Of a DNA stretch of 64,000 nucleotides, positions 1,094-44,108 are shown piece after piece (position 1 is the stretch's first letter; every line of letters starts with the position of its first letter). The position numbers and the translations under genes were made by a program. A model generated the notes under the pieces. That model had not been told where the DNA came from. It did no database searches and was given only the letters and a program-made list of their open reading frames with translations. Location: positions 62,001 through 126,000 of the forward strand of contig JAJPES010000056.1 of NCBI GenBank assembly GCA_021166725.1, written 5' to 3'. Source of the stretch: Burkholderiaceae bacterium (lineage in GTDB: Bacteria > Pseudomonadota > Gammaproteobacteria > Burkholderiales > Burkholderiaceae_E).

Positions 1094-1193
1094 TGTCGAT
1101 TCATCTCCTCCACAGTGTGCAGAGCGGATCGAAAAGATGCGATGATTTTTTGCTGATTCCCTCGATTCGATTCGCACACCTGCTAAGCCTGTC

Positions 1194-28723: not shown

Positions 28724-29827
28724 TCACAGAGCCAGGCCTGCAGCCAATTCAGCCTTGAGGCCGCGTCGGTGGGCGACCTGCAAGACCGACATGTCGTAAC
28801 CCGAGTTCGCCTCGATCAGCACGACCCTCGTTTCCGTGGGTGCAATATCCCAACCGACGGACTTGAATCGGGGGACGCTGGCTTGGGCTCGAAGTGCCAG
28901 TTCCGCGATCGAATCCCACAGCGGTAGCCGACTGCCGGTGATCAAATGACCTGTATCGGGATGCGTCTCTCTGGTGACCATGACCGGCCAGTCTTTTCGA
29001 AGCGACCCTCGTGCCGCAGTAAGAATACCGGTTTCTATGTCTACGCCGGCGAGGAGATTCCCGCCGGCGCCGTCCGAAAAATTGTCGCTGATACTCGAGC
29101 CGACCGGAATCTTCAGGCATGCAAAAAGGATGCGTGGGCCGTCCTTTGCGGATACGGTGACCACGCGGACGCTGGGCAACGCGCTCGCCGATGCGAACGG
29201 TTTCATCGTTTCATGCGGTCGCTCCTGCCGCTGCACGATGAACCCTGAATGGTCGTCCAGTTGGTCCTGCAGATAATGGTAGAGACCTTCGAGAGTCTGT
29301 TCTCGTTCGTGCGGGAGGAATTCACAGCGGCCCTCGGCATGAAGTGCGAGGAAAGCTCCTTCTGCATGCGCGCCGTCGATGGGTTTTATAAAGAGCCGCT
29401 CTGGCGCCGATCGAAGGATCGCCTTGAACTGCTCGACCGAGTCGGCGTGGGGAACAACGGTGCCAAGGGGGTCAGGCGATCCGCCCACGCGACAGATTAT
29501 TGCTATGGCAGGAAGACCTTGGCGAAGGCAGTGCTCGAAAAAAAGAACCTTGTTGTATGCCAGTCGATGCATCTCCGGAGGGCTCATTCGTTGCAGGTCG
29601 CGCTTGAAGTCATTGTTGTCGAAAACATAATCAAGCCAACGACCTTCGGGAACCGTGGCAAGTTGCAGAACGGAGAAGGGAATCGGGCCAATTCCATACT
29701 TCAATCGTGCTCGTGCCGCGCGATACGCGATCGGGACGAGTCGATCGAACCGGCCTTCCGCGCCGTAGTAGACCGCCGAACTGTACTGACGAAAGACTCG
29801 CCGGAGGTCGTGTAGTTGCAGGTTCAT
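28724..29827 (-). CDS. Sugar-transfer-associated ATP-grasp protein (copy 1)
   Basis: 367 residues. Segments fit the ATP-grasp fold of the sugar-transfer-associated family: AYNKVLFFEHCLRQGLP, RLFIKPIDGAHAEGAFL (phosphate-binding region), FIVQRQERPHETM, ACLKIPVGSSISDNFSDGAGGNLLAGVD and the metal-binding GWDIAPTETRVVLIEANSG. ATP-grasp enzymes make amide bonds through acyl-phosphates. The family occurs in surface-polysaccharide loci, where an amino-acid or peptide ligase role has been proposed. It diverges from the MurL-like gene across about 100 bases. It and the MurL-like gene are visibly less GC-rich than the core operon. A second copy is at 35164-36258. Confidence 0.8.
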   Translation of the reverse strand: MNLQLHDLRRVFRQYSSAVYYGAEGRFDRLVPIAYRAARARLKYGIGPIPFSVLQLATVPEGRWLDYVFDNNDFKRDLQRMSPPEMHRLAYNKVLFFEHCLRQGLPAIAIICRVGGSPDPLGTVVPHADSVEQFKAILRSAPERLFIKPIDGAHAEGAFLALHAEGRCEFLPHEREQTLEGLYHYLQDQLDDHSGFIVQRQERPHETMKPFASASALPSVRVVTVSAKDGPRILFACLKIPVGSSISDNFSDGAGGNLLAGVDIETGILTAARGSLRKDWPVMVTRETHPDTGHLITGSRLPLWDSIAELALRAQASVPRFKSVGWDIAPTETRVVLIEANSGYDMSVLQVAHRRGLKAELAAGLAL

Positions 29828-29930
29828 GAGGCAGGACGATGGATGTTGCGCAGCACGGATGGCGCGTCTGCCGCGTCTTCGCGGAAGCGAAACTGAGATC
29901 GCTCATCCAAGCCAAGAGAAGGCTGTTCGA

Positions 29931-31352
29931 ATGCTAGTGCGAACCAAGAGAGTGGTAAAGTTTTTTCGCAATGCCGTCAAAGATCCATTACCGCGGCGAC
30001 GGACTCTCGAATTCGTTGCTGCCGACATCGAGTCCAACGCAATCGTGTTTCGATACACGGCCAAGGGTTGCGCTTTCGCGGTTCGGATGACGGTTCCTGA
30101 CCACCTCATGGAGGAGCTGTCGGCACTCCGCGGGCAGTCGTGTCTCGAGCAAGCGCTTCTGGCAATAGGTCTGACATTCGCAGCCCGGTTTTTCAAACTC
30201 TCGAACTTCTCGACCGTTCGTGTCGGATTCGGCTCGCTCGACCCCGAGAGTGTCTACTTCTTCGAGGATTTCTTCGTAGGCGGGCTCGGTGAATTCCGGT
30301 TTCTTCAAGGTCTCGACCCAAGGCGAAAAGTCTCGGTCGTCTCGGCACCGAAGGCGGCTTTCAACATGGCCGAATTTCCGCTGCACGAGCATGCGCTGAT
30401 GCTCAACGGCGGTGGCAAGGACACCATCGTCGCTGCGGAAATGCTGCGCCGTGCCGGACAGCCGCTCACCTGGCTGACCGTCGAACCGAACGAGACCAGG
30501 AGACGAGTGATTCGTTGCGCGGGTGGTGGCGATTCTGCAATCGAGGTCGACTTTCGAATCGAGGGAGATTTCGAGCAGAACCAGGCCTACGACTGGGGAC
30601 ATACGCCATACGCCGCAATCGTCATGGCAATCGGCGCGTTGTTCGCGTTGCTGACTCGCAGTCGATACGTAATATCCGGCAACGAACTTTCAGCCGATTC
30701 CGGGAATGTCGTCTATCGCGGACACTTGGTGAACCACCAGTACAGCAAGTCGTCCGTCCATGAGCTTGGGTTCTGGAAATTCGTCCGGAGAAGAATCCAT
30801 CCATCCATGGAGGTGCTGAGCGTCTTGCGTCCGTTCCATGACGTGCAGTTGGCGATGCTGTTTTCATCGCTGGACAGGTATTTTGGCACGTTCGTAAGCT
30901 GCAATAGCGGTATCGCAGCCGGTCGATGGTGCAAGCAATGTCCGAAATGCGCATTCACTGCGCTTGCGATCGGAGCGTTCACGGGAGTGTCGGGGCTGAG
31001 AAGGATATTCGGCGAAGACGTATTGGGCAGCCCCCGGATTCGACGTCGGATTGGCGAACTTGTCGAGGGAAGAATAAAGCCATGGGAGTGCGTGGGGAGC
31101 AGGGATGAATGTCTTCTCGCTTTGGCGCTCCTGCTGGAAAAGGAGCCAACACTGGACTTCGACGAGAATCCGACGCGAGCCGATTGGGTCCGTATGACGG
31201 CGAACGCGAACCTCGACCTTCTTCGGCACCAGTTGCTCGTGCAGACCTCGGATCGGCATCTGCTCCCGGAGCAACTTCGGGTGCCCTTGGACGAGACCTT
31301 GATGGGTTGGGGCTGGCGCGACCTTCGACTATCCCCGTCGACGCTTCGGTGA
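29931..31352 (+). CDS. MurL-like glutamyl epimerase family protein
   Basis: 473 residues from ATG 29931 (AAGG eight bases upstream); the open frame extends to 29826, but those 35 residues look non-coding. It carries a pyrophosphatase-type ATP loop LNGGGKDT (160-165), GNELSADSGNVVYRGHLVNHQYSKS (to about 274) and WCKQCPKC (333-340), then ECVGSRDECLLAL. These are, from memory, hallmarks of MurL, which uses ATP to turn the terminal L-Glu of UDP-MurNAc-L-Ala-L-Glu into D-Glu. Placement in an exopolysaccharide locus, not a cell-wall cluster, suggests a different glutamyl or carboxylate substrate (inference). It is followed by an asparagine-synthase-like gene and a deacetylase on the same strand. 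Confidence 0.7.
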   Translation: MLVRTKRVVKFFRNAVKDPLPRRRTLEFVAADIESNAIVFRYTAKGCAFAVRMTVPDHLMEELSALRGQSCLEQALLAIGLTFAARFFKLSNFSTVRVGFGSLDPESVYFFEDFFVGGLGEFRFLQGLDPRRKVSVVSAPKAAFNMAEFPLHEHALMLNGGGKDTIVAAEMLRRAGQPLTWLTVEPNETRRRVIRCAGGGDSAIEVDFRIEGDFEQNQAYDWGHTPYAAIVMAIGALFALLTRSRYVISGNELSADSGNVVYRGHLVNHQYSKSSVHELGFWKFVRRRIHPSMEVLSVLRPFHDVQLAMLFSSLDRYFGTFVSCNSGIAAGRWCKQCPKCAFTALAIGAFTGVSGLRRIFGEDVLGSPRIRRRIGELVEGRIKPWECVGSRDECLLALALLLEKEPTLDFDENPTRADWVRMTANANLDLLRHQLLVQTSDRHLLPEQLRVPLDETLMGWGWRDLRLSPSTLR

Positions 31353-31469
31353 GGGTTTCCGGGTTCCCGCTGGCAGACCGGGCGCGTAGCCGGATGCGCA
31401 TCCTCGGCGACGCGCAACCGTGGGCTTCACGGAAGGGCGCGACGTTAACAGGTAGACTGCAGCACGAAC

Positions 31470-33293
31470 ATGGTGGTCTCTTCTCTTCTACCGATTTCCT
31501 TTGGCGGCAGCTTCCTGTCCGCCGATCCTGCGCGGTTGGCTGCGCAGCTCGACGCGGACATTCGAGGGGAAGTCTTTCGCGATTCCGGCTCGGGCTCGTT
31601 CGTCCATGGCCGCATCAGGTTCACGGGTGGCCGAGGCGGCTTCGGTCAGGCTACGGCAGAACACATCTATCGCCGCTGGCGTGAACGGGGCGACGCGGTG
31701 CTCCGCGAGATCGCTGGCGAGTACCTGCTCGTTCTCTGGGATGGCGAGCGCGGCAATGCGCTGCTCGCGACTGACCGCTTCTCGAGCTTGCCCCTCTTCT
31801 GGGCTCGAAACGGCGCTCGCGTAGGTTTTGCGGCCGCTCCGGAGCAGGCGGCGCGGCACGCCGGACTCTCACTCGAGGCCGATTGGCAGGCACTTCACGC
31901 CTACGTCTACTTTCACATGATCCCGGCGCCGATGAGCATCTATCGCGGCGTCCGGCGCCTCGACGTCGGCGAGGCGTTGCGCGTCGAGGCGGGCAGCGCG
32001 GAGGTGTTTCGTTACTGGGTGCCCGAGTTCGACGAGGAGCGGCGTTTCGACTTCGCGCTGGAGCGTGAGGCTTTTCTCGCAGCGCTCCGGGACGGTGTCG
32101 CGGAGTGCATCGATGGCTTCGATCGGGATCGGCTCGGCTGCTTCCTGTCGGGCGGAACCGACAGCTCGACGATCGCTGGTCTCGCCACGCGTCAGTTCGG
32201 TGCGCCGGCACGCACGTTCGCGATCGGCTTCGACGTCGGCGGGTACGATGAAACCCGCTACTCGCGCCTGGCCGCGCGGCACTTCGGCACCGAACACACC
32301 GAATACTTCGTGACGGCCGACGACGTGCACGCAGGAGTGGAAGCGGTGGCCACGCGGTACGAGCAGCCGTTCGGGAACTCGTCTGCGCTGCCGACCTACT
32401 TCTGCGCGCGACTGGCGCGAGACAACGGCATCGAACGGATGCTCGGCGGCGACGGCGGCGACGAGCTCTACGGCGGCAACGAGCGTTATGCCAAGCAGGC
32501 CGTCTTTGCGATGTATGGAAAGGTGCCTTCGATCGCGCGCTCGATCTTCGAGCCCGTGCTTTTCGGGCCTTTCGGCAACATCGAAGCGAAGCTGTTCGCG
32601 AAGGCGCGCAGCTACGTCGAACAGGCGAAGGAGCCGCTGCCGGATCGTATCCAGTCGCGCTATAACCTGCTGAACCACCTCGGGGCGTCGAGCGTGTTCA
32701 CTGACGAGGTCCTAACAGGTATTGCCCTGGACGGCCCGCTACAGCTCGAGCGCGAGGTATGGAACCGCGCGCGCCTGAATGAATCGAACACGGGACCGAT
32801 GTCGCAGATCAATCGCTTCCTGGCGTGGGACTTCAAGTTCACGCTTGCAGACAGCGACCTGCCCAAGGTGACGAGAATGTGCCAGGCGGCGGGCGTCGAA
32901 GCCGCGTTTCCGATGCTCACGCATGCGCTCGTAGAACATTCGCTCCGGCTGCGGCCCGACGAGAAGCTCAAGGGCAGGCGACTGCGACACTTCTTCAAGG
33001 AGTCGCTGCGGGGTTTCCTGCCCGATGAGATCATCGCGAAGCAGAAGCACGGCTTCGGCCTGCCGTTCGGCAGCTGGGTGCTGTCGCACGAGCGCTTGCG
33101 CCACACGGCCGACGACGCGCTTCGATCGCTGTCGTCGCGAGGCGTCGTTCGCTCCGAGTTCCTGGGTCACTTGCGCGAGCAGCTCTCCTCGGGGCATCCG
33201 GGCTACTACGGAACGATGGTCTGGATCCTGATGATCCTCGAACTGTGGCTGCGTGCGTCGCCGCTGGCGGACCTGAAAGCGAGTCGGACGTGA
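31470..33293 (+). CDS. Asparagine-synthase-like protein lacking the Cys2 nucleophile
   Basis: 607 residues. The N-terminal domain keeps the shape of a glutamine amidotransferase (LVLWDGERGNALLATDRFSSLPLFW) but starts MVVSS, with no Cys2, so glutamine hydrolysis should be lost. The synthetase domain is intact: SGGTDSS at 227-233, GGDGGDELYGGNERY and KQKHGFGLPFGSW. The enzyme should still activate a carboxylate with ATP, then use free ammonia or another amine. Cys-less relatives such as beta-lactam synthetase join an internal amine. It follows the MurL-like gene after 117 bases and overlaps the deacetylase start (TGATG). Confidence 0.82.
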   Translation: MVVSSLLPISFGGSFLSADPARLAAQLDADIRGEVFRDSGSGSFVHGRIRFTGGRGGFGQATAEHIYRRWRERGDAVLREIAGEYLLVLWDGERGNALLATDRFSSLPLFWARNGARVGFAAAPEQAARHAGLSLEADWQALHAYVYFHMIPAPMSIYRGVRRLDVGEALRVEAGSAEVFRYWVPEFDEERRFDFALEREAFLAALRDGVAECIDGFDRDRLGCFLSGGTDSSTIAGLATRQFGAPARTFAIGFDVGGYDETRYSRLAARHFGTEHTEYFVTADDVHAGVEAVATRYEQPFGNSSALPTYFCARLARDNGIERMLGGDGGDELYGGNERYAKQAVFAMYGKVPSIARSIFEPVLFGPFGNIEAKLFAKARSYVEQAKEPLPDRIQSRYNLLNHLGASSVFTDEVLTGIALDGPLQLEREVWNRARLNESNTGPMSQINRFLAWDFKFTLADSDLPKVTRMCQAAGVEAAFPMLTHALVEHSLRLRPDEKLKGRRLRHFFKESLRGFLPDEIIAKQKHGFGLPFGSWVLSHERLRHTADDALRSLSSRGVVRSEFLGHLREQLSSGHPGYYGTMVWILMILELWLRASPLADLKASRT

Positions 33294-34309
33294 TGCTCCG
33301 TTCGCTGACCGCGCTCGCCGCGCCCGCGGGCGCGCGATCGAGATTGTCGGTGTTCTATTTCCATCGCGTGCTGGCCGATCCCGATCCGTTGCTTGCGCGC
33401 GAGCCCGACGCGCGGTCGTTCGCGAATATCCTCGACTGGATCGCGGCGCAATTCCGCGTGCTCGACCCGCTGGAGGGATGCGAAGCACTCGTCGACGGTC
33501 GCTTGCCCGCCCGGCCAGCGGTCATCAGCTTCGACGATGGATATCGCGACAATTACGATGTCGCGCTGCCGTTGCTGCGCGAGCGTCGCTTGCCGGCAGT
33601 GTTCTTCGTGGCGACCTCGTTTCTCGACGGTTCGATGATGTTCAACGACCGGGTGATCGAGGCGATACGCGCTGCAAAGACGCCGTCGATCCGGCTTCCG
33701 GCGGTGCAACCCGGTGCGGCGCAGGACGAATTGTCGTTGCGCAGCGATGGCGGGCGCCGCGTCGCAATAGGACGTTTTCTCGCTGCCGTGAAGCGACTCC
33801 CACCCGCAGAGCGCAACGAGCGCGTGCTCGAACTCGAGCGGCAGTGCGACGCACCGCGTCGGCGCGAAGTGATGATGCGGCCGGCACACGTCAAAGCCTT
33901 GCACGATGCCGGCATGCGGATAGGCGGTCACACGAGAACGCATCCCATCCTCTGCGCAACGGGCGACGCCGAGGCCGAGGCCGAGATCGACGGCGGTCTC
34001 GACGATCTTGCATCGATCATCGGCGAGCGACCTGTTCTTTTCGCGTACCCGAACGGCAAGCCGGGGCTGGATTACGATGCGCGTCACGTCGCGATGGCGG
34101 ATCGGGCTGGATGCCGTTTTGCGTTCTCCACGCAGGCCGGGGCCGCGAATCTGACGAGCGCGCCGCTGGAGCTGCCGCGCTTCACACCGTGGGATCGGAC
34201 GCGTCTGCGGTTTTCGCTGCGTGCGTTGCAGAATGTCTGGGCAAGACGCGCCGAAGGGCAAGCCCGTGTACCCGATTTCTCGAGCGCTGCACAACGTCGT
34301 GTCGCCTAG
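33293..34309 (+). CDS. Polysaccharide deacetylase (NodB-type)
   Basis: 338 residues from ATG 33293, overlapping the upstream stop by one base. NodB motif 1 is ISFDDGYRDN (Asp81-Asp82) and motif 2 is GGHTRTHP (His213, His217), completing the Asp-His-His metal site. YPNGKPGLDYD and FSTQAG follow. The family removes N-acetyl or O-acetyl groups from amino sugars. A freed amine could become an acceptor for the amide-forming enzymes nearby (inference). No signal peptide is visible, so it may act on lipid-linked precursors in the cytoplasm. Confidence 0.85.
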   Translation: MLRSLTALAAPAGARSRLSVFYFHRVLADPDPLLAREPDARSFANILDWIAAQFRVLDPLEGCEALVDGRLPARPAVISFDDGYRDNYDVALPLLRERRLPAVFFVATSFLDGSMMFNDRVIEAIRAAKTPSIRLPAVQPGAAQDELSLRSDGGRRVAIGRFLAAVKRLPPAERNERVLELERQCDAPRRREVMMRPAHVKALHDAGMRIGGHTRTHPILCATGDAEAEAEIDGGLDDLASIIGERPVLFAYPNGKPGLDYDARHVAMADRAGCRFAFSTQAGAANLTSAPLELPRFTPWDRTRLRFSLRALQNVWARRAEGQARVPDFSSAAQRRVA

Positions 34310-34337
34310 CAGGACGCTGTGCCCGATGCAGTTGCTG

Positions 34338-35174
34338 CTACCAGTCGGCGCACTGCGCGATCAACTCTTTTCGCGGCCAGATCGCTGCGTACGATTGCGG
34401 GAGATACGCCCCGGATTCGGCCAGGCGGCGGCGCGTCGGGGATCGGATGAACGCATCGCCGCTCGTATCCGCTCCGAGATGGAAGAGGCGAGCGCCCGTC
34501 TGTCGGGAGAGGGCCGAAATATAGGCGAGTCGCGGGCTCGGACTTGCAAGGGCGGGATCGTATAGCCAGCTGCTGCCGAAGACGGCAAGCGTTCCCGGGT
34601 TGGCAACGAGCATCCGAGCGAGTCGCCCGAGTGTGCGGCGCCATCCGGGCTCATCGAATTCGGTCAGGTCGTCGGGATGGACGTGCAACTGAAACACCGG
34701 TCGATTCGATTTCAGCGTTACCAGAAGCGAGAGAAAGCGAAGACGCTGCGCGAAGCCACCCTTCGAAACGATACTCCGCGGGTATCCCATGTGGGGCTGG
34801 ACGATTCTCGCGCCTGCCGGAAACATGATTCCCCGGCACAGCGCCAAGTCTTTCAGATACCGGTCTTCGTAGCGCGAATAGTGCCGATCGATTGGGGTTT
34901 CACAGCGCGCCCGGATTCGGTCGAAGGACCTGGCAAATAGTCGGTCGATCTCGTCAGTGGTCCGGTAGAGAGCCGGAAGAGGGCGGGACCGGATCAACTC
35001 TGCGAGCACTTCGGCCCGCAGCCGCGTCAGCCCTTCTTCGCCGGAGCCGTCGCGTGCTCGCCGCTCGAGTCCGACCACGTCCGCGGGCAACGTATGGTAC
35101 GGAGTGCCCGGCACGATGCCCGCCAGCCTGTCGATGTATAGCGCGGCGAGTTGCCGGGGATTCTCACTGCTCAT
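34338..35174 (-). CDS. Protein of unknown function coupled to ATP-grasp ligase
   Basis: 278 residues from ATG 35174, overlapping the ATP-grasp stop by 11 bases, so probably translated with it. I recognise no family. Visible features are a long polar N-terminal half (AALYIDRLAGIVPG...LYRTTDEIDRLFARSFDRI), then GIMFPAGARIVQPHMGYPRSI, FQLHVHPDDLTEFDEPGWRRTLGRLARML and LFHLGADTSGDAFIRSP. The HVHPDD stretch could bind metal, but this is not diagnostic. There is no signal peptide or membrane helix. It is the last gene of the 15-gene minus-strand run and converges on the deacetylase at 34309. Confidence 0.7.
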   Translation of the reverse strand: MSSENPRQLAALYIDRLAGIVPGTPYHTLPADVVGLERRARDGSGEEGLTRLRAEVLAELIRSRPLPALYRTTDEIDRLFARSFDRIRARCETPIDRHYSRYEDRYLKDLALCRGIMFPAGARIVQPHMGYPRSIVSKGGFAQRLRFLSLLVTLKSNRPVFQLHVHPDDLTEFDEPGWRRTLGRLARMLVANPGTLAVFGSSWLYDPALASPSPRLAYISALSRQTGARLFHLGADTSGDAFIRSPTRRRLAESGAYLPQSYAAIWPRKELIAQCADW

Positions 35175-36258
35175 GCGCGAAGCGGCGCGAGACGTGCAGC
35201 GCGTCTCCACTCGGCATGCCCGTGATGGCCGCGCCGGTTCGGTCAGGCTCCACGTTGAGTTCGACGATCATCGGGCCCGAGCGCGCGAAGGCGACGTCGA
35301 TTCCCGCAAAGCGGATGCCGGGAAATGTGCGAACGGCGCGTTCGGCGACGGCGAGCGCGTCCTGCCAGAAGGGCAGGCGGGTGCCCGCAATCTTCACGCC
35401 GGTGTCGGGGTGCGTCGCGAACTCCTCCCGACTCGGATACCCGTCGAAGGCGTTCGAGACGATGCCCGTACGGGGATCCACCGGTGCGACCAGGCCGCCC
35501 CGGGAACGGTTGTCGACCAAAGAGGCGCCGCGGCCCATCCGCAGGAACGCCAGGGGGAAACGGGCTGGACCCTTCTCGTCGAGCACGACCCACAGGCGAA
35601 CGGTGTTCACGCTGGCCTGGCTCATCTGCCGCAGCGTTTCGTGCTGGTCCAGATATTCCTCGACGAGCAGGCCTGAACCGCTCGACCGAGAGTCTTCGAC
35701 GAGGCGCTCGTACAGGGCCAAAGGCTCGATGTCGCGAGCGTCCGAAAGGGAGCGCAGCCGCACGTCGTGTGTTTCTGCATCGATCTCGAAGGCCTGGAAG
35801 CCCACGCCGCCTGATCCCTCGGCGAGCTTGACGCAGAATCGCCTGGCGTCGCAATTGCGCAGGAAGTCGAGCCACTCGTCGGCAGAAGTCAGCGGGCCGT
35901 TTCGGCTGGTCCGGCCGGCGCGCGGATGGAGGTACGCGAGAAAGCGCGGAGTCGGGATTCCCGTCAGCGTCAGGACCGATTTCTCCGCGAGTTTGTGCTG
36001 CGAAATCTTGAAATACGCGCCGTCGTTCAGCGCGTGCACGGCGTTGCGATACGCGCGCGAGCCGAGGTGTGCGGTCTTGTCTCGCCAGGGAATCGATCGG
36101 CGCGCCATGCCGGCCATGTAGTAGTACCCGGGACCGTTGCCGCCGCGTGCGAGCAGCAGCATGATCTCGAACCACTGGCGCGCTAGCGGGAGTTCGCCGC
36201 TGGCAGCTGCGCGACGCCCATGGGCGACGAAACTGCGCAACCGCTGGGTCAGTTCCAT
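35164..36258 (-). CDS. Sugar-transfer-associated ATP-grasp protein (copy 2)
   Basis: 364 residues. ATP-grasp landmarks: DARRFCVKLAEGSGGVGFQAF (nucleotide loop), LLVEEYLDQHETLRQMSQASVNTVRLWVVLD, LAFLRMGRGASLVDNRSRGGLVAPVD and the metal site FAGIDVAFARSGPMIVELNVEPD. This is the same architecture as copy 1 at 28724-29827, though the two are clearly diverged, so they may join different amino acids. It follows a deacetylase after 13 bases and is coupled to the unknown gene at 34338. Expected chemistry is ATP-dependent amide or peptide bond formation on a sugar or peptidyl-sugar (inference). Confidence 0.82.
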   Translation of the reverse strand: MELTQRLRSFVAHGRRAAASGELPLARQWFEIMLLLARGGNGPGYYYMAGMARRSIPWRDKTAHLGSRAYRNAVHALNDGAYFKISQHKLAEKSVLTLTGIPTPRFLAYLHPRAGRTSRNGPLTSADEWLDFLRNCDARRFCVKLAEGSGGVGFQAFEIDAETHDVRLRSLSDARDIEPLALYERLVEDSRSSGSGLLVEEYLDQHETLRQMSQASVNTVRLWVVLDEKGPARFPLAFLRMGRGASLVDNRSRGGLVAPVDPRTGIVSNAFDGYPSREEFATHPDTGVKIAGTRLPFWQDALAVAERAVRTFPGIRFAGIDVAFARSGPMIVELNVEPDRTGAAITGMPSGDALHVSRRFAHEQ

Positions 36259-36271
36259 GACGGCTCGTACG

Positions 36272-37345
36272 TCATCGCATGTCCGTCTCGGGTGACCGGG
36301 TGCGTCGGACCAGCGATCCTAGTCGGTCGATCCAACGCTGCAGGCCGCTGACGCCGACGAGGAAAGCCTCGTCGGATGTCAACTGGCCGTCGAGTAGACG
36401 CGGTAACGCCAGCGGATCCGACTTCGCGGTCGCGAGATCGAGGTCGCACGTCGTCGCGAGGTCGACTCCGGATGCGCGAAGATGGGCTATCGCCTGCGGC
36501 GTGTAGTCGCCGCTCGGCCAGCAGAAGTGGCGAAACGACTCGGGCGGCCGGTCGAGTATCCGGGACAGGCTCGCGCGGTTGCGGGCGATCTCGGTTGACA
36601 CTGCGTACTCGGAAAAATCGTCGAGGCTGTGTGTGTGGGTGTGCAACGCGATCTCGAAGCCTTTGCGTTGCGCCTCGACGAGATCATTCTCGTTGCAGAG
36701 ATCGAACGGGCCGTTTCTTGCCAGCAACCCGGTGTCGAGCCCGAGCCGCAAGTACAGGTCGCCGAGCAGGGAGCGGTGCTCATCGACCGAGGCGTGAGCC
36801 AGCATCTGCTCGATCACCGCGAATGTCTGCTGGCGCGATTGCGCGTCGCCAAGCGCGGCCGCTTGCGACGCCGCTCGGGCGGGCGCGGGCAGGCCCTCGA
36901 GCGATATTCCGTCGGCTCTGCTGTGCTCGAGTGCGTAGCCCAGCGCCACGTCGGCCACCGGCGCACGGGCTTCGATCCGCTCCGTCTGGATGTAGATCGT
37001 CGCGGGATATCCGTAGCGCTCGAGGGCCGGCAACATGTGCGAGAAGGTCGTGGCCCAGCCGTCGTCGATCGTGATGACGGCGGCTCTCTGTGGAAGTCTG
37101 CGATCGAACAGAGCGCGAATCGCCTCGCGCATGGGGAGAACATTCAGGCCGAGCGACCGGATGAGCGCCAGCCGTGCCTCGAATTTCTCGGCGCTCATGA
37201 AGAGTTTGTTCCCGAAGTGCGGCGCGCCGGCAGCCCAGATGCCGTGATAACACAGAATTCGCAGGCTTCTCGCGCTGCCGCTCAGCGCAAGAGTTCCGAT
37301 GCCGCATCGGTCGATCGCACGATCGAGCAAATCCCGCGCACTCAT
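36272..37345 (-). CDS. Polysaccharide deacetylase-like protein (NodB-type)
   Basis: 357 residues from ATG 37345 (MSARDLLDRAIDRCGIG). The open frame reaches 37483, but that part reads as noise. It has LCYHGIW, ITIDDGWATT (Asp94-Asp95) and ALHTHTHSLDDF as the two NodB motifs, then FCWPSGDYTPQAI. This layout occurs in cytoplasmic deacetylases of surface-glycan loci. It lies 94 bases after the MurF-like gene and 13 before ATP-grasp copy 2. Confidence 0.82.
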   Translation of the reverse strand: MSARDLLDRAIDRCGIGTLALSGSARSLRILCYHGIWAAGAPHFGNKLFMSAEKFEARLALIRSLGLNVLPMREAIRALFDRRLPQRAAVITIDDGWATTFSHMLPALERYGYPATIYIQTERIEARAPVADVALGYALEHSRADGISLEGLPAPARAASQAAALGDAQSRQQTFAVIEQMLAHASVDEHRSLLGDLYLRLGLDTGLLARNGPFDLCNENDLVEAQRKGFEIALHTHTHSLDDFSEYAVSTEIARNRASLSRILDRPPESFRHFCWPSGDYTPQAIAHLRASGVDLATTCDLDLATAKSDPLALPRLLDGQLTSDEAFLVGVSGLQRWIDRLGSLVRRTRSPETDMR

Positions 37346-37439
37346 CGCGGGAACTTGAGATCGAAACAGCCCGTCGCGAGGCCTTCGCGTGGATCGAATG
37401 TGCGAAAGAGCTTGCGCAATATAGCTTTCTTCGCGGTTC

Positions 37440-38954
37440 TCAAAACCAGCGAGTATGCAACAATTTTCCCGCCTGCCAGGCACCCCACCTTCTCATAATC
37501 GCCCATTTCCTTGCCACTCCGCGACTTGATATGTAGACAAAGACCCGAACTTTTCCGAGTTGCGGCACGGGGTCTGAGAAGCGGGAAATCCGACGGAGAT
37601 CCTGTACGAGACGGTATATACCGGTGCCGTGGGAACCCTTGAAGAGAACGACGTCTCCATCCCGGAGTTCTCCAGCGAGGCGTGCAAGTACTTCGTGTTC
37701 CCTTGTAGCAATCGATCCACGAAGCCGATCTGGCAATTTTTCTCTGAGTCGCGACATCATCGCGCCTACAAGGTGTACCTTATCTACCCCGCACTCGATC
37801 AGCGGTTCCGCTAGTTCCTCGTGAAATGCTGCGCTCTGCTCGCCCAGTTCGAGCATGTCACCCAAGACAGCGATGCGACGCCCGTCGCCGGATGGCTTCG
37901 TAGTTGCCAGCGTCGAGAACGATGCCCTCATCGATAGTGGGCTGGCATTGTAAGAGTCATCAATAATGCGTATCGAAGTCCCACATATGTTCAACGTCTC
38001 AAGCAATCCGCGGCCTTCCACCGGCGGAGCGGAGAAGCAGTGGGGCAGCAGCGACTCGACCTCCGCACCTGCTGCATAAGCCGCGGCGAGTACGCCGAGG
38101 CTGTTAAGTGCCATATGTCGTCCGTGCAGGCCGAGTTTGTAGTCGATTTTTTCGTCAAAAACCTGCGCCGTGACGCGGTTCTCCGCTGAAACGTACGTGA
38201 GCAGGCGGAATTCCGATTCCGGATGCTCGCCGTACGTCAGTATTCGCGCCGCAGGACCTTTACTCGCGATTTCACGAGCATACGCGAAATGCGGAATATC
38301 CCGGTTGATTACAGCGACGCCTCCGTCGGCGAGATCGCCAAAGAGGCTCGCCTTCCGGGACGTCAGCTCAACCAGGTCGACTTCGGAAACAGCATGGACC
38401 GGAGATATGTTCGTAAGAAGAACAACATGTGGCCGGAGTATTTTCGTCGCGTCTTGGCCGAGTGCTTGCAGCGAGGCCTCGACGATCAAGTAGTCGATGT
38501 CCACTAGGTTCGCTGCGGCACAAAGAATGCCGTCTGCGTAGTTCGCTTGACCATTTGTGGTCGTGCGGGCTGCTTTTCCGAGAAGATGTTTGAGCAGATA
38601 ACACGAGCTAGTTTTTCCTACGCTACCGGTTACGGCGATGATCTTGCTCGACGTTTCGCCACGAAGATAGTTTGCCAGCGCGCGAAGCGCATCGGAAGTC
38701 GACTCCACGCGAAGAATGGGCATTTCAAGTCGCGGTTCGGCCGCGCGCGCCCCCAGAAGCAGACCTCCGCTAAGCATGCTTTTGTTTATTGAACCATAGC
38801 TCAGGCCATAGCGGGCTCCTGCGTCCTTGGCCAAAATCGTCTGACCGTCTCGGTACTCCTCAGCGCTGTAACAAAGACCTCTGTACCGCCAACCTCTCGG
38901 CGGCGCTGGAGCCCAGTTTCCCCGCAGAATTGCGGCAAGTTCATCGGCATTCAC
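37440..38954 (-). CDS. MurF-family ligase homologue in the exopolysaccharide operon
   Basis: 504 residues with full MurF architecture: an N-terminal substrate domain to about residue 100, the ATP loop VTGSVGKTS (108-116), IVEASLQALGQ, NRDIPHFA, the MurF hallmark IDDSYNASPLSM, and a C-terminal domain with LGDMLELGEQSAAFHEEL and VLFKGSHGTG. MurF normally adds D-Ala-D-Ala to the UDP-MurNAc-tripeptide. Location inside an exopolysaccharide operon, a divergent N-terminal domain and lower GC than neighbours argue against the housekeeping gene. It probably attaches an amino acid or dipeptide to a sugar or peptidyl-sugar (inference). It lies 67 bases after the Mur-PTH fusion. Confidence 0.85.
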   Translation of the reverse strand: MNADELAAILRGNWAPAPPRGWRYRGLCYSAEEYRDGQTILAKDAGARYGLSYGSINKSMLSGGLLLGARAAEPRLEMPILRVESTSDALRALANYLRGETSSKIIAVTGSVGKTSSCYLLKHLLGKAARTTTNGQANYADGILCAAANLVDIDYLIVEASLQALGQDATKILRPHVVLLTNISPVHAVSEVDLVELTSRKASLFGDLADGGVAVINRDIPHFAYAREIASKGPAARILTYGEHPESEFRLLTYVSAENRVTAQVFDEKIDYKLGLHGRHMALNSLGVLAAAYAAGAEVESLLPHCFSAPPVEGRGLLETLNICGTSIRIIDDSYNASPLSMRASFSTLATTKPSGDGRRIAVLGDMLELGEQSAAFHEELAEPLIECGVDKVHLVGAMMSRLREKLPDRLRGSIATREHEVLARLAGELRDGDVVLFKGSHGTGIYRLVQDLRRISRFSDPVPQLGKVRVFVYISSRGVARKWAIMRRWGAWQAGKLLHTRWF

Positions 38955-39021
38955 GTCTGGGCTTCCAGCGCTTTGCCGTGGTCAAGTTCATGCTGTTGAC
39001 CGAAAGGCATTGATCTTGTCC

Positions 39022-40872
39022 TCAACAATCCAGTGCCTGAGCCGTGTCTGTTGCAGGGGTCGTGCGCGCTGTCATGCTGAGAAGTTGCGCTTTTGCGCGA
39101 GAGAGGCCATTCTTCAGGAGAGCTTCGTCGGCTGCCTTAAAATCGGACAAAACAAGATCGAGCGCGCGCTGCGCATCGCCCGATCGTCGCACTCCGATGC
39201 GCACTCGGCGGAAATCGTCGGTACCTAGCGCGGTAATGATCGATCGGACGCCCTTGTGACCGCCGTCGCCGCCTCCGCGCTTGGCCCTGCAGCTACCGAT
39301 CGCAAGATCCATGTCGTCGTGGACGATGATGCAATCCTGAATCGCGCGTCCCGTGCGATGCAGAAACCGTCGAATGACCGGTCCAACGGAGTTAATATCA
39401 GAAGCGGGTTTGAGAAGCGTTATCGCTTCGCCTGCGAGGTCGACCGTGATGATCATCCCGTCGGGGTCGCTCGCCCAGTTGCTTTCGATCGACGCGAGGG
39501 AATCGACAAGACTATAACCTACGTTGTGCGGAGTCCTGCTGTACTTGTCTCCGGGGTTTCCGAGGCCGATCACAATAGATTCGGCCGTTGTAAGAGTTTG
39601 ACTCATCGTCGAAGAGGCAAGGGGTGCGCTCGGCTCGTAGAGCCGGGCGCAGCGGTCACAGTTGTCTGGCATCCCGCAGCTCGCCCGCCAACACTGAACC
39701 GGGTTGCGTCGATCGAACATTAAGCGCGCCAGGTGATCCTGTTTGGCCGTCCCCTTCAAAAGGACGAGATCGCCTGCCCTTAGTTCCGACCGAAGAAATT
39801 CGGCGGCTTCCCTAACGCTCGTGAATGCCTTTGATCGGTTGGCGTCTTCAGGTCCGATCCCTGCCCGGAGGGCTTCGAGAGCACTCGTGCCGACGAGTAG
39901 AACAAGATCGACCGCCTTTAGTGCTTCACGCGCCGCGTGGCGAAAACGTTGCGTCGGCGACTTCGGCGAATCGGAGATCGACCCGATGACGATGATCTTT
40001 CGCGATGCGCGAGCATCACGCATGAAATCGAACGGCGCTTGTAGAGACCATTGCGGAGCCTTCCAGTCGTCCCTGACGAACGTGACTCCATCGATCGTCT
40101 CGACCTGCATCCGCGCCTCGGTCCCTTCTGCCTCGGCAAGCGCAACAGCAGCCTCTGCGACCGTCGCGCCGATGGCGAGTCCAATTCCCACGGCCATTGC
40201 GACGGGAAGCGCGAGATGTGCGCCGTGCAATCGAGTACGAACCTCCGTCGTTTGCCCTGAGTGGCAAAGTTCGAGTGTGAGCGGTTCGGGCCACATGGAC
40301 CGGCAACTCAGCAACCGCAAATCCGCGCGCTGATCCTTGCCTACCCAGATAATCCTCCCGTGGTGACGTTCGCCTATCGCGCGGACGAGGGGGTCATCGA
40401 TGTTCAATATAGCGACTCCGGTGGGCGACAGCGCTGCGACGAGCTTCCTCTTCTCCTCGGCGATCGCTTCGAGCTGCTTGAAGGCGCTGTAGTGTTCGCG
40501 TGCGATAAGCGTTACGGCCGAAATATCCGGTCTGATCACTTGAATCGAACGGTCGAGGTATCCGGGTCGCGTTGCCGACGCCTCCACCACGCAATATCGA
40601 TGAATGCGAGCGGCTGTCGCAACCGTGCGGAAGATATGGTAGTGCTCGTTTGCGGTAATACTGTTCCTGTGACATGGTCCGAAGCGCTCGAGGATCGCAG
40701 CAGCGAGGTCCTTCGTCGTAGTCTTTCCAGCGCTTCCCGTTATTCCTATAAAGGTCGTATGCCTCAACCTCCGCCTGTTCAACAGCGCCCCACAGAAGAA
40801 AATGACGACACGGGACTTCCATCGAATGTCTTTGAGGGTTTCGTTGAGTCTCGAGGCTATCGCGTTGGACAT
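39022..40872 (-). CDS. Mur ligase - peptidyl-tRNA hydrolase fusion
   Basis: 616 residues in one uninterrupted frame. Residues 1-390 are a Mur ligase: GITGSAGKT at 43-51, LNIDDP, and VRDDWKAPQWSLQAP near 266-280 in place of MurF's DDSYNANP. A cysteine knuckle follows (Cys394, 399, 405, 408). Residues 431-600 are a complete peptidyl-tRNA hydrolase domain: GLGNPG (Asn439), TPHNVG (His449), Asn494, HDDMD (Asp519) and GGGDGGHKG. These match E. coli Pth Asn10, His20, Asn68 and Asp93, but the Asn114 position is Lys540. Pth frees peptides from tRNA by ester hydrolysis. Fused to an amide ligase in this operon, it may act on an aminoacyl or peptidyl ester used by the pathway (inference). GC is lower than in neighbouring genes. 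Confidence 0.85.
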   Translation of the reverse strand: MSNAIASRLNETLKDIRWKSRVVIFFCGALLNRRRLRHTTFIGITGSAGKTTTKDLAAAILERFGPCHRNSITANEHYHIFRTVATAARIHRYCVVEASATRPGYLDRSIQVIRPDISAVTLIAREHYSAFKQLEAIAEEKRKLVAALSPTGVAILNIDDPLVRAIGERHHGRIIWVGKDQRADLRLLSCRSMWPEPLTLELCHSGQTTEVRTRLHGAHLALPVAMAVGIGLAIGATVAEAAVALAEAEGTEARMQVETIDGVTFVRDDWKAPQWSLQAPFDFMRDARASRKIIVIGSISDSPKSPTQRFRHAAREALKAVDLVLLVGTSALEALRAGIGPEDANRSKAFTSVREAAEFLRSELRAGDLVLLKGTAKQDHLARLMFDRRNPVQCWRASCGMPDNCDRCARLYEPSAPLASSTMSQTLTTAESIVIGLGNPGDKYSRTPHNVGYSLVDSLASIESNWASDPDGMIITVDLAGEAITLLKPASDINSVGPVIRRFLHRTGRAIQDCIIVHDDMDLAIGSCRAKRGGGDGGHKGVRSIITALGTDDFRRVRIGVRRSGDAQRALDLVLSDFKAADEALLKNGLSRAKAQLLSMTARTTPATDTAQALDC

Positions 40873-40919: not shown

Positions 40920-42866
40920 TCAGGCGTTCACCGTCGATATTCGATTCGGCTGCGATCTCGAATAATCGTTTGATGCGATTTCTAGGTTTGCAAGAAATCG
41001 ATCGAAAATCAGCAAAGCCCAGATCATCGCGCTTCGATCGCGTTGTCCGCTCAGATGCTCGTCAACGATTCGCACAAGAGCGCGAGCGTCAAACACTTCG
41101 GTGCTCGCGAGTCTCTCGCCGAGCAGCACGCGTTTCACCTCGTTGCGCAGTGGCCCCCGAAACCAGTTCGCCAGCGGAACGGCAAACCCCATCTTCGGTC
41201 GGTAGAGCACATCCTCGGGTAGCAACGGCTCCATCGCTTTCTTCAGCACCAGTTTTCCTTCGCCGCCGGCAAGCTTGAGCGATGCCGGCAGGCGCGCCGC
41301 CCACTCGACCAGTGGATGATCCATCAGCGGCTCCCGCGTCTCGAGCGAGTGCGCCATGCTCGCGCGATCGACCTTCGTGTTGATGTCGCCGGGCAGGTAG
41401 GTGTTGTAGTCGAGGTACTGGATCAACGACAGCGCGTCGTCGGTCTGCGCGCGTGTCGCGTGCTCGTGGAAGACTTCGCGTGCGCGGTAGCCGCCCAGGC
41501 GCCTGCGGAACTCGGGCGAGAACAGGCGCGCCCGATCGTCGTCGCGCACGATCGACACCGAATGGCAGTAGGCGTCGACGGCGTCACGCGCGAGCGCCTG
41601 GAAGGTGGCGCGTGCGCGAAAGATGCGCGGCAGGCGATCGAGTTGCGGATACACGCGACCGAGTGCGCCGAAGAGCGTGTGGCGCACCGATGCCGGAACG
41701 CGATCGCGCAGCGCCTGTTCTCGAACGTGGAACTTGTAGCGCCGGTAGCCGCCGAAGGTCTCGTCGCCGCCGTCACCCGACAGGGCGACGGTCACTCGCG
41801 TGCGCGCGAGTTCGCAGACGCGGTAGGTGGGAATCGCGGAGCTGTCCGCGTAAGGCTCGTCGTAGAGGTCTGCCAGCTTGTCGATCAGCCCGAAGTCGTC
41901 GCTGTGCACGATCCGCGTGAAATGATCGGTCTTGTAGCGAGTCGCGACCTTCTGCGCGAATTCCGATTCGTTGAACGACGCCACGTCGAAGCCGATCGAG
42001 CAGGTCTTCACCGGCTGATCGCTGACCCCCGCCATCATCGCGACGACGGCGCTCGAATCGACGCCCCCCGACAGGAACGCCCCCAGCGGCACTTCCGAGA
42101 TCATCCGAAGCCGTATCGATTCCGCCAGTCGCTCGCGCAGTTCGGCGCATGCGTCGGCGAGCGTGATCCGGCCGTCGGCTTCGAAAGAGACGTCCCAGTA
42201 GCGCCGGATCGTCGGTTCGCGCTGCCCGACCCTCCAGGTGAGCACGTGTGCCGGTGCGAGCTTGTGCGCCTGCGAATAGATCGTTCGCGGGTCGGGGACG
42301 TAGCCGAACGCGAAGTACTCCTCGATAGCCCGATCGTCCAGTGCGCGGTCGAAGCCCGGGTGCACCGTGATCGTCTTCAACTCTGAGCCGAAGAGCACGG
42401 TGCCGTCGGCAAGTTGGGCCCAGTGCAGCGGCTTCACGCCGAGGCGGTCGCGCGCGAGGTAGAGCGTCTTGCGATTCCGATCCCACAGTGCGAAGGCGAA
42501 CATGCCGCGAAAGCGCTGCACGCAGTCTTCGCCCCATTGCTCCCAGCCGTGCACGATGACTTCGGTGTCGCTGCGCGTGCGGAACACGTGCCCGGCCGCT
42601 TCGAGTTCGCCTCGAAGCGCTTCGAAGTTGTAGATCTCGCCGTTCAGCACGACGACCACGGTGCCGTCCTCGTTGAACAGCGGCTGCTGTCCGGTGGCGA
42701 CGTCGATGATCGAAAGCCGGCGATGACCGAGCCCCACGTGCGCCTCGACGTGGATCGATCCTTCGTCCGGGCCTCGATGATGCTGGATGTCGTTCATCCG
42801 GCGCAGAAGTGCCTCGTCGCAGCGCGTCGGCGATCGGGGGTCAAAGATGCCGGTCAGCCCGCACAT
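40920..42866 (-). CDS. asnB: XrtA/PEP-CTERM amidotransferase (TIGR03108-type asparagine synthase)
   Basis: 648 residues. MCGLTGIFDP supplies nucleophile Cys2; NGEIYNF, RDRLGVKPLHWA and SGGVDSS (266-272) follow, with GDGGDETFGGY and DRASMAHSLETREPLMDH. The sequence fits amidotransferase 1 of exosortase A systems closely. In Zoogloea, asnB of the equivalent locus is needed for floc formation. The likely act is glutamine-dependent amidation of a uronic acid. It lies between the GT gene (three bases away) and the Mur-PTH fusion (47 bases) in the long minus-strand run. Confidence 0.92.
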   Translation of the reverse strand: MCGLTGIFDPRSPTRCDEALLRRMNDIQHHRGPDEGSIHVEAHVGLGHRRLSIIDVATGQQPLFNEDGTVVVVLNGEIYNFEALRGELEAAGHVFRTRSDTEVIVHGWEQWGEDCVQRFRGMFAFALWDRNRKTLYLARDRLGVKPLHWAQLADGTVLFGSELKTITVHPGFDRALDDRAIEEYFAFGYVPDPRTIYSQAHKLAPAHVLTWRVGQREPTIRRYWDVSFEADGRITLADACAELRERLAESIRLRMISEVPLGAFLSGGVDSSAVVAMMAGVSDQPVKTCSIGFDVASFNESEFAQKVATRYKTDHFTRIVHSDDFGLIDKLADLYDEPYADSSAIPTYRVCELARTRVTVALSGDGGDETFGGYRRYKFHVREQALRDRVPASVRHTLFGALGRVYPQLDRLPRIFRARATFQALARDAVDAYCHSVSIVRDDDRARLFSPEFRRRLGGYRAREVFHEHATRAQTDDALSLIQYLDYNTYLPGDINTKVDRASMAHSLETREPLMDHPLVEWAARLPASLKLAGGEGKLVLKKAMEPLLPEDVLYRPKMGFAVPLANWFRGPLRNEVKRVLLGERLASTEVFDARALVRIVDEHLSGQRDRSAMIWALLIFDRFLANLEIASNDYSRSQPNRISTVNA

Positions 42867-42869
42867 TTT

Positions 42870-44108
42870 TCAGTTCGTTCCCGATCGCGCCAGTGCGCCC
42901 GCGCGATCCGTAGGGGCTGCAGCCCAGGCCGGCTCCACGACGCGATGGTGCAGCAGCAACCGGGTATACAGGGCCTCGTAGTCGGTGATCATCCGGTCGA
43001 TGCCGAAGCGCTCGACGGCGCGCGTTCTGGCGCACGCACCGTGCGCCTCGCGCAGCCGTTCGTCTCTCGCATAGCGACCGAGCGCTGCGGCCATCGCGTT
43101 CGCGTCGTTCGATGCGACCAGCGTTCCGCTCGTTCCGTCCTCGATCAGTTCGGCGTTGCCTCCGACGGAGGTCGCGACGCAGGGCAGGCCGCTGGCCATT
43201 GCTTCGAGCAGGGTGTTGCTGATGCCCTCTGCGAGCGAGGGCAACGCGTAGATGTCGAGGTCGCGCAGGTATACCGCGATATCGTCGCGCATGCCGATCC
43301 GTTCGATCCGGTCGCGCAGCGGCGATCGCCCGATTCGTTCGTGCAGAGCGCCGGCGAGTGGGCCGTCGCCGATGATCCGCAGTCGCAGGTGCGTTGCAAG
43401 CGCTCGATCGTGGCTCGACGTTTGTGCGTGCAGTTGCTCGAATGCGTCGACGATGAGCAGTGGATTCTTCACGTCCGCCAGGCGGCCGACGTAGCCGACG
43501 ATGATGGCCCTCGGGCCGCCCTCGGCGGTGGTTGCGTGTCTGCGCTCGCTCTGTTCACCGGCCGTGCGCGGACGGAAGCAGTCGGTGTCGACGCCGTTGC
43601 AGATCGAATGCAGCCGGGCGCTGGGCACGCCTACGCGATCGCGCAGATAGGCGAGGGTGGGTGCCGACAGCGCGACCTGGGCGTGCACGAAATGCCGCAG
43701 CAGCCGCCGCGTTCGCAGCAGCGAAGCGTTGCTGCCTACGAGGTCGTGCACTTCCCATCCGTGTTCGCCGTGGATGCGCACGGGAACGCCTGCGAGCAGC
43801 GCGGCGATCTGCACTTCGAGGGTGCCGACGTTGCGCGTGTGCACGATCGACGGTCGCAGCCTGCGAAGCATGCGCCACAGCGTCGGGAGCGCGCGCGCGA
43901 GCGGACCGGGTTGCAGTAGCAGCGGCTCGACGCGAACCTGCGGATTCGTGATGCGCGCTGCGATCCGGCCGGTGTTGGTGAGCGGAACGATCGTGTGCCG
44001 GAAGCGACTCGCCGGGAGCCGGTTAACGAGGTTGACCAGGCCGTTCTCCATCCCTCCGGTGTCGAAGCGGTGGATGACGTGAACCAGATGTGCAGCGCCC
44101 GCCTTCAT
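42870..44108 (-). CDS. TIGR03088-type PEP-CTERM/XrtA sugar transferase (GT4)
   Basis: 412 residues from ATG 44108, overlapping the exosortase stop (ATGA). Family motifs include VHVIHRFDTGGMENGLVNL, HTRNVGTLE, RIHGEHGWEVHDLVGSN and the GT4 donor site GYVGRLADVKNP, YALPSLAEGISNTLLEAMASG. It is a cytoplasmic glycosyltransferase assembling the lipid-linked repeat unit. The position directly after xrtA and before asnB is the usual order in XrtA loci. Confidence 0.92.
   Translation of the reverse strand: MKAGAAHLVHVIHRFDTGGMENGLVNLVNRLPASRFRHTIVPLTNTGRIAARITNPQVRVEPLLLQPGPLARALPTLWRMLRRLRPSIVHTRNVGTLEVQIAALLAGVPVRIHGEHGWEVHDLVGSNASLLRTRRLLRHFVHAQVALSAPTLAYLRDRVGVPSARLHSICNGVDTDCFRPRTAGEQSERRHATTAEGGPRAIIVGYVGRLADVKNPLLIVDAFEQLHAQTSSHDRALATHLRLRIIGDGPLAGALHERIGRSPLRDRIERIGMRDDIAVYLRDLDIYALPSLAEGISNTLLEAMASGLPCVATSVGGNAELIEDGTSGTLVASNDANAMAAALGRYARDERLREAHGACARTRAVERFGIDRMITDYEALYTRLLLHHRVVEPAWAAAPTDRAGALARSGTN

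Follow-up and report, generated by a model that had tools for sequence, protein, structure and literature searches.

Why should an exopolysaccharide locus carry relatives of the enzymes that build the peptide stem of peptidoglycan? The question is raised by a stretch of 64,000 nucleotides from a Burkholderiaceae bacterium (contig JAJPES010000056.1, here C5, positions 62001-126000; assembly of 3.57 Mb, 89% complete), which we call the window and which holds a locus of exosortase A (XrtA), an enzyme that goes with matrix and floc polymers. An earlier note on this DNA had proposed that the genes at 28724-40872 form a dedicated pathway attaching amino acids or short peptides to an exopolysaccharide or to its nucleotide-sugar precursor. 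All genes that it named there were found in place by family model matches and motifs, and our analysis supports its proposal in part, namely for a set of putative amide ligases that is linked to the XrtA locus and accessory to the housekeeping Mur enzymes. The set includes a fusion of a Mur ligase with a peptidyl-tRNA hydrolase (Pth), which belongs to a separate Mur subfamily to which Pth has been joined in two orders, and sugar-transfer ATP-grasp genes (family ATPgrasp_ST), which are linked to xrtA in most XrtA-positive genomes carrying this subfamily.

Two Mur::Pth fusions are encoded by the host:

39022..40872, minus strand: Mur::Pth fusion of 616 amino acids (PF08245, PF02875, PF01195; alignments; AlphaFold model, Foldseek)
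1-1327, minus strand: second Mur::Pth fusion, of which the window's left edge leaves the N-terminal part

A Mur-ligase paralogue had been placed at 1-1093 before; the Mur piece is indeed there, and it proved to be longer and to be the cut part of the second fusion, whose complete gene (L048:180-2327, minus strand, 715 amino acids) extends 821 bases upstream of the window. The two fusions are 47% identical, and the second lies at the opposite end of the locus. The 616-residue protein comprises a Mur ligase (residues ~40-375), a four-cysteine motif (394-408) and a peptidyl-tRNA hydrolase domain (433-602). Since the fusion is a single open frame and recurs, including its Pth part, in G002, a genome of the host's genus, and in Pseudothauera and Haliea, it is more than a chance joining. 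Its four-cysteine motif (C-x4-C-x5-C-x2-C) and the absence of the N-terminal domain that binds uridine diphosphate (UDP) sugars set the fused enzyme apart as a member of a Mur subfamily, here termed Mur-C4. This motif was present in 15/15 Mur-C4 members read (a 13-row alignment and two phylum genomes) and in 0/15 MurF-type frames read to the stop, and it was also absent from host MurF, host MurE and the MurF-like protein of the window. T45-S47, K50, H127, K141 and the four cysteines are invariant in 13/13 aligned Mur-C4 rows, which thus keep the P-loop lysine and the active-site lysine and histidine of the Mur ligase superfamily signature; K141 is aligned with the AK.RLF lysine of host MurE, which we take to be the carboxylated lysine of the Mur active site.

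MurF gave the best sequence match (4qdi) and the best fold match of the Mur part (Foldseek target template modelling (TM) score up to 0.73 among the matches listed), and the fusion shares its P-loop and its active-site lysine and histidine. Unlike MurF, however, the fusion lacks an N-terminal UDP-sugar-binding domain (its P-loop lies at about residue 45, while the match to 4qdi starts at MurF residue 108), adds the four-cysteine motif and Pth, and stays below the NCBIfam murF cut-off (TIGR01143, 288.6 bits) with 167.4 bits, or 151.5 bits for the window part of the left-edge copy; moreover, DD[WF]KAP in the XrtA set contrasts with DDTYNAN in host MurF. The AlphaFold model, with a mean predicted local distance difference test (pLDDT) score of 76.3, has one helix before the Mur domain; its pLDDT is below 50 in the cysteine region, so that the fold there is not predicted. 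Membrane anchoring through the N-terminal helix was considered and rejected, the hydrophobicity of the helix being inconsistent in the 11 of 13 members read.

A pattern scan with the Mur part across contigs of 84,980 species returned 13 loci, five of them close relatives (36-56% identity, including G002). Profile searching of 369 class genomes, with at most four first-look candidates scored per genome and matches listed best first, gave the host, G470, G229, G457 (two copies) and G434 above 300 bits among the matches listed; the next score, 195 bits, marks the start of ordinary MurF-like matches. Likewise, 398 phylum genomes yielded the host and four more Mur-C4 genomes, all of one genus, and one additional Mur-C4 gene was found on a Gemmobacter plasmid, among glycosyltransferases. 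The 13 Mur-C4 rows are joined in the tree with moderate support (89/87), and seven of them form an XrtA/ATPgrasp_ST sub-clade at 99/98. Pth is joined to Mur-C4 at opposite ends in two branches: it follows Mur in six proteins (both of the host and those of G002, Pseudothauera, Haliea and G470), while on another tree branch G434 has the reverse order in one frame of 637 residues, with Pth at 10-194 and Mur at 261-597. In Kineobactrum, Solirubrobacter, G229, G457 and Gemmobacter the frames, at 393 to 456 residues, are too short to hold a Pth part as well. As to their surroundings, the G434 frame (L088:12152-14065) stands beside lipid A/Kdo-like genes, as read from translations only, and G457 carries its two Pth-less Mur-C4 genes in tandem (L086:16024-18698). 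About 5 kb from the lone Mur-C4 gene of G579 lies a gene (L126:7466-8506) whose protein, unscanned, we presume to resemble TupA-like ATP-grasp enzymes, a group that we take to be near ATPgrasp_ST; it was not seen beside Mur-C4 in G559.

The Pth domain of the 616-residue fusion scores above the family cut-off (TIGR00447, 136.7 bits; cut-off 100), and its fold matches that of Mycobacterium tuberculosis Pth (2z2i, target TM 0.88). Similar to bacterial Pth, the fused domains keep the HN and DD positions, which we take to belong to the active site. They are unlike it in being joined to a ligase and in lacking the asparagine of the GGHNG motif, presumably Asn114 of E. coli Pth, which is replaced in 7/7 fused domains but kept in 28/28 ordinary Pths of the relatives. 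The substitute is lysine in both host copies, G002, Pseudothauera and G470, leucine in Haliea and arginine in G434.

The link to exosortase A was assessed from the following gene and its counterparts:

44105..45790, minus strand: xrtA frame, exosortase A (TIGR03109, 332.7 bits; cut-off 208), with the domain starting at residue 58

XrtA was above cut-off in 73/369 class genomes sampled, host included (base rate 20%), and in seven of the ten Mur-C4 genomes covered by this test (the host, G000, as well as G002, G470, G457, Pseudothauera, Haliea and Kineobactrum), the four one-genus phylum genomes and Gemmobacter standing outside it. The exosortase of G229 stayed under the cut-off with 188.5 bits, and G434 and Solirubrobacter gave no match. 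Among proteobacterial Mur-C4 genomes outside the host genus, XrtA was found in 5/7 compared with the base rate of 20% (p = 0.004, kinship uncorrected), a count that omits Solirubrobacter, which lies outside the base-rate class and would make it 5/8. Moreover, 6/7 XrtA-positive Mur-C4 genomes, G457 being the exception, have an ATPgrasp_ST gene on the xrtA contig at no more than 50 kb from xrtA, compared with 1/70 XrtA-positive class genomes without Mur-C4 (G272, 41 kb; Fisher p = 2e-7); for these controls, the status without Mur-C4 rests on the class profile search with its limit of four candidates per genome and its limited, best-first list of matches. Leaving out the window and G002, the difference is 4/5 against 1/70 (Fisher p = 2e-5). 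The 50-kb limit was chosen in the knowledge of the distances in the Mur-C4 genomes (8-31 kb) and ahead of the control run, and the 70 controls include several fragmented assemblies. Some ATPgrasp_ST match exists in 20 of the controls, mostly one high-scoring gene on a different contig, and low-scoring genes (<200 bits) occur anywhere in the genome in four of the 70 (G272, G371, G384, G509); 4/5 against 4/70 still differs, at about 3e-4 by hand calculation. The random co-occurrence that the earlier note had named as speaking against its proposal is therefore not indicated by the linkage found with and without the DD[FW]KAP Mur subfamily. As for the Mur gene, four of the six linked genomes (the window, G002, Haliea and Kineobactrum) have it at no more than ~20 kb from xrtA. 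The XrtA locus of G272 (L114-L116) has two ATPgrasp_ST genes at about 41 kb from xrtA, and no Mur-C4 gene was found there in the class search.

The window is filled with landmark genes of an XrtA exopolysaccharide locus, identified by model matches: XrtA, a FemAB-type protein, deacetylase, ATPase, outer-membrane protein, tyrosine kinase, chain-length protein, glycosyltransferases, amidotransferases, acyl-CoA ligase, pyridoxal phosphate-dependent decarboxylase, PrsT and response regulator. Altogether 15/17 XrtA-system model matches exceed their cut-offs, those below being stp2 (0.2 bits short) and the amidotransferase at 2202-4127. The agreement places the locus with the PEP-CTERM/exosortase A loci described by Haft (2006; PMC1569441), the amide-ligase cassette being an extra relative to these; the words ligase, amidotransferase and FemAB are absent from its main text. 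Relevant here are:

45724..47616, minus strand: XrtA-associated FemAB-family protein (TIGR03019, 449 bits; cut-off 260.35)
40920..42866, minus strand: XrtA-system amidotransferase with Cys2 (TIGR03108, 1021 bits), separated by 47 bases from the Mur::Pth gene
5350..6666, plus strand: nucleotide-sugar dehydrogenase, possibly supplying uronate (TIGR03026, 361 bits)
54812..56092, plus strand: TviB-like nucleotide-sugar dehydrogenase (463.8 bits; equivalog cut-off 592 not reached)
56122..57198, plus strand: TviC-like epimerase, start codon not fixed (374.1 bits; equivalog cut-off 760 not reached)

The FemAB-like transferase reported before at 45724 is thus present, but it is of the ordinary XrtA-associated type, encoded in an over-long frame with the domain at residues 303-630. 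Similarly, homologues of the uronic-acid enzymes AlgD, TviB and TviC exist, while the specific assignments went too far: the dehydrogenase at 5350-6666 passed the cut-off only of the general NDP-sugar dehydrogenase model, and the other two remain below their equivalog cut-offs. Since all genes from the XrtA genes to 34338 share a strand and either overlap, in some cases because of over-long frames, or are at most 67 bases apart, the genes for Mur::Pth, the MurF-like ligase, a second deacetylase, an ATP-grasp protein and a protein without family match are probably transcribed together with them. Genome-wide, the host has nine Mur_ligase_M matches, of which three are those of the XrtA locus and four lie on contig C27, where a housekeeping set exceeds the model cut-offs (MurE 453.6, MurF 404.4, MurC 548.7 and MurD 372.1 bits); a host without murC-F elsewhere, which would have made the cassette a candidate for cell-wall synthesis, is hence not what was found. 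The matches on C31 and C80, of which the middle domains alone were scanned, resemble Mpl and cyanophycin synthetase, the latter (G000:C80:6755-7390) matching PRK14016 with 285.7 bits over the middle domain.

The remaining genes of the cassette are:

37440..38954, minus strand: MurF-like ligase (TIGR01143, 234.0 bits; below cut-off 288.6)
36272..37483, minus strand: polysaccharide deacetylase 2 (DD and HxxxH motifs; counterparts in Haliea and Pseudothauera)
35164..36258, minus strand: sugar-transfer ATP-grasp protein B (PF14397, 146.1 bits; cut-off 31.4)
34338..35210, minus strand: protein without family match, in the same run (43% counterpart in the Pseudothauera XrtA locus)
33245..34309, plus strand: polysaccharide deacetylase 1 (DD and HxxxH motifs)
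31470..33293, plus strand: AsnB-like protein without Cys2, starting MVVSS, with SGGTDS kept in the synthetase domain
29826..31352, plus strand: MurL-like homologue of an ATP-dependent epimerase, start codon not fixed (NF041275, 182.8 bits; cut-off 700)
28724..29827, minus strand: sugar-transfer ATP-grasp protein A (PF14397, 132.7 bits; Pseudothauera counterpart 36%)

The MurF-like protein retains about 107 residues ahead of the Mur middle domain and a YNAS motif. ATP-grasp protein B has counterparts in Haliea and Pseudothauera, while a sequence search of the class sample gave weak matches alone (at most 89 bits, in 2/368 other genomes). The catalytic Cys2 was not found in the AsnB-like protein; among five such proteins compared, the window's included, four lack a Met-Cys start (the start codons of the others not being fixed), and that of G470 begins MAGLCGW. 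For the protein at 34338-35210, searches returned no family and no PDB match, and a single-sequence structure model (pLDDT 41) was not used.

Comparison of the six XrtA loci with Mur-C4 and ATPgrasp_ST indicates which parts travel together. ATP-grasp protein B and deacetylase 2 occur jointly in 3/6 (the window, Pseudothauera and Haliea), and the AsnB-like protein and deacetylase 1 in 5/6, not in Kineobactrum, when G470 with its cysteine near the AsnB-like start is counted. Deacetylase 1 has counterparts in G002, Haliea, Pseudothauera and G470, and it is not specific to Mur-C4 loci because it is also found in G272 without Mur-C4. The protein at 34338-35210 has its counterpart in Pseudothauera only. 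A second deacetylase-like type was seen in G002 (under the Pfam cut-off), Pseudothauera and Kineobactrum, and a second FemAB/GNAT-type protein in G002 and Kineobactrum. The recurring set is narrower than the full cassette first proposed: the MurL-like gene occurs in the window only among the six, and the separate MurF-like ligase has no counterpart in the other compared loci, where only Mur-C4 matched, whole genomes not having been searched for it. Neither is thus upheld as a general part of the system. Since a search of 32 other genomes, among them congeners and Mur-C4 genomes, found the MurL-like gene in none, D-glutamate (D-Glu) is not demonstrated as part of a shared pathway.

The MurL-like protein itself is homologous to MurL, whose biochemistry has been reviewed (PMC8788868), without being an equivalog, and it is plausibly an ATP-dependent epimerase. 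It shares 33% identity over 305 residues as well as the GGGKD, NHQ.SK and WC..CPKC motifs with MurL of Xanthomonas sacchari, but it lies within a glycan locus between ATP-grasp and AsnB-like genes, with no murD2 adjacent, whereas X. sacchari murL adjoins murD. The resemblance invites the explanation that this and the Mur-like genes serve peptidoglycan, with the MurL-like enzyme providing D-Glu in a host without racemase, and indeed no glutamate racemase match (TIGR00067) was found in the 89% complete assembly. This explanation is nevertheless very unlikely in our view, given the missed NF041275 cut-off, the missing murD neighbour, the complete MurC, D, E and F elsewhere and, in particular, the congeners: 17/17 searched have neither a racemase over cut-off (G011: 28.6 bits) nor a MurL-like gene, which suggests a different route to D-Glu in the genus. 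The MurL-like protein as the host's source of D-Glu was therefore set aside as unlikely.

We lean, by a modest degree, towards the explanation that the cassette decorates the XrtA glycan with amide-linked amino acids or short peptides, as suggested by its domain assignments, its one-strand run with the XrtA genes, the conserved active-site residues and sub-clade of Mur-C4, the ATPgrasp_ST linkage at xrtA, the joint recurrence of deacetylase 2 and ATP-grasp protein B, the Gemmobacter gene among glycosyltransferases and the complete housekeeping Mur set. The genes, their domains, the separate Mur subfamily, the two orders of the Pth fusion and the linkage are established by computation. The locus would make uronic acids, deacetylases 1 and 2 would expose amines, and ATPgrasp_ST and Mur::Pth enzymes would activate a carboxylate as acyl phosphate and couple it to an amino acid or short peptide; amide formation by the Mur, ATP-grasp and AsnB-type enzymes is inferred from their families, and the substrates, acceptor, amino acids, order of steps and product are guesswork. 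Because the UDP-sugar domain is absent, the acceptor of Mur::Pth would probably be no UDP-sugar, and rather a lipid-linked saccharide, amino acid or peptide; attachment to a nucleotide-sugar precursor, which had also been proposed, fits poorly with such fused enzymes. The Cys2-less AsnB-like enzyme would take an amine other than ammonia from glutamine, and the MurL-like protein may invert one residue in the host genome. Several observations weigh against decoration of the glycan: no ATPgrasp_ST accompanies the xrtA and the two Mur-C4 genes of G457, G272 combines ATPgrasp_ST near xrtA with no Mur-C4 match, and the few Mur-C4 genomes, for which the Mur gene itself served as the search probe, are uncorrected for kinship. 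In addition, Mur::Pth of Pseudothauera and G470 lies on a different contig from xrtA with no glycan genes recognised nearby, and Mur-C4 genes without Pth and without a recognised glycan locus occur in a genus elsewhere in the phylum (four genomes, neighbourhoods read in two) and in Solirubrobacter, which has no exosortase match either. The latter two observations would suit a Mur-C4 enzyme that makes a soluble metabolite or small peptide unrelated to exopolysaccharide, its proximity to xrtA reflecting coincidence or shared regulation. We consider this rather unlikely in view of the ATPgrasp_ST-xrtA linkage, of the Mur gene near xrtA in four of the six genomes and of the separate sub-clade formed by the linked rows.

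Alternatively, the product might be no decoration of the polysaccharide but a peptide or peptide-tailed glycolipid in its own right, similar to poly-gamma-glutamate or cyanophycin, that is stored or secreted with the matrix. The missing UDP-sugar domain of Mur-C4 would agree with this, as the Mur-type parts of poly-gamma-glutamate and cyanophycin synthetases presumably lack it too, and cyanophycin synthetase is among the Foldseek matches. However, Mur::Pth scores 32.2 bits with the cyanophycin synthetase model TIGR02068 against a cut-off of 850, the host has its own cyanophycin-synthetase-like Mur domain on C80, and the cassette is placed among glycan genes, which makes a separate peptide improbable. 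Within the favoured decoration of the glycan, a more specific role for Pth can be imagined, in which Mur::Pth acts as a tRNA-dependent amide ligase. Ordinary Pth hydrolyses N-blocked aminoacyl-tRNA; the Mur part would link the free amine of an aminoacyl-tRNA with a carboxylate on a glycan or peptide, Pth would cleave the ester of the resulting N-acyl-aminoacyl-tRNA and so release the amino-acylated glycan, and the four-cysteine motif would bind tRNA or zinc. Such a role would explain why Pth was joined twice, at opposite ends, to the same ligase subfamily. The Pth-less Mur-C4 relatives and the altered GGHNG asparagine count against it, we know of no Mur ligase that uses charged tRNA, and we regard it as a doubtful, speculative option.

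Each of the enzyme families is already known, and amino-acid decoration of surface glycans is a known kind of modification. A 2009 survey of amidoligases by Iyer and colleagues reportedly names the sugar-transfer ATP-grasp group and may predict such systems. The Mur-C4 subfamily, the joining of Pth in two orders and the ATPgrasp_ST linkage at xrtA are apparently new, as none of them appeared among the open-licence papers listed; in these we found no Mur ligase fused to peptidyl-tRNA hydrolase, no Mur ligase in an exosortase locus and no ATPgrasp_ST linkage at xrtA. To our knowledge, the products of amide-forming enzymes of XrtA loci are mostly not known, and the recurring ligase set names genes and strains (Haliea salexigens, Pseudothauera rhizosphaerae and Kineobactrum sediminis) in which one can ask whether XrtA polymers are peptide-bearing glycans. 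The joining of Mur and Pth in two orders also points to an unexplained tie of Mur chemistry to an enzyme that hydrolyses N-blocked aminoacyl esters. A precedent for an acidic polymer of glycan and peptide is the teichuronopeptide of Bacillus halodurans (TupA), which combines poly-gamma-L-glutamate with polyglucuronate (PMC8153356); it belongs to a Gram-positive cell wall, unlike the system considered here, and the passages seen of that source mention no Mur::Pth enzyme.

Across the host genus, no TIGR00067 match exceeded the cut-off in 18/18 genomes searched, some of them incomplete. MurL-like matches were also found on plasmids, in four records, three of them from Pseudonocardia. In the single Pseudonocardia neighbourhood read, no glycan genes were seen and none of the genes annotated within 8 kb codes for a Mur ligase; the MurL-like gene (L118:7911-9305) is annotated there as hypothetical, and the plasmid is mobilizable.

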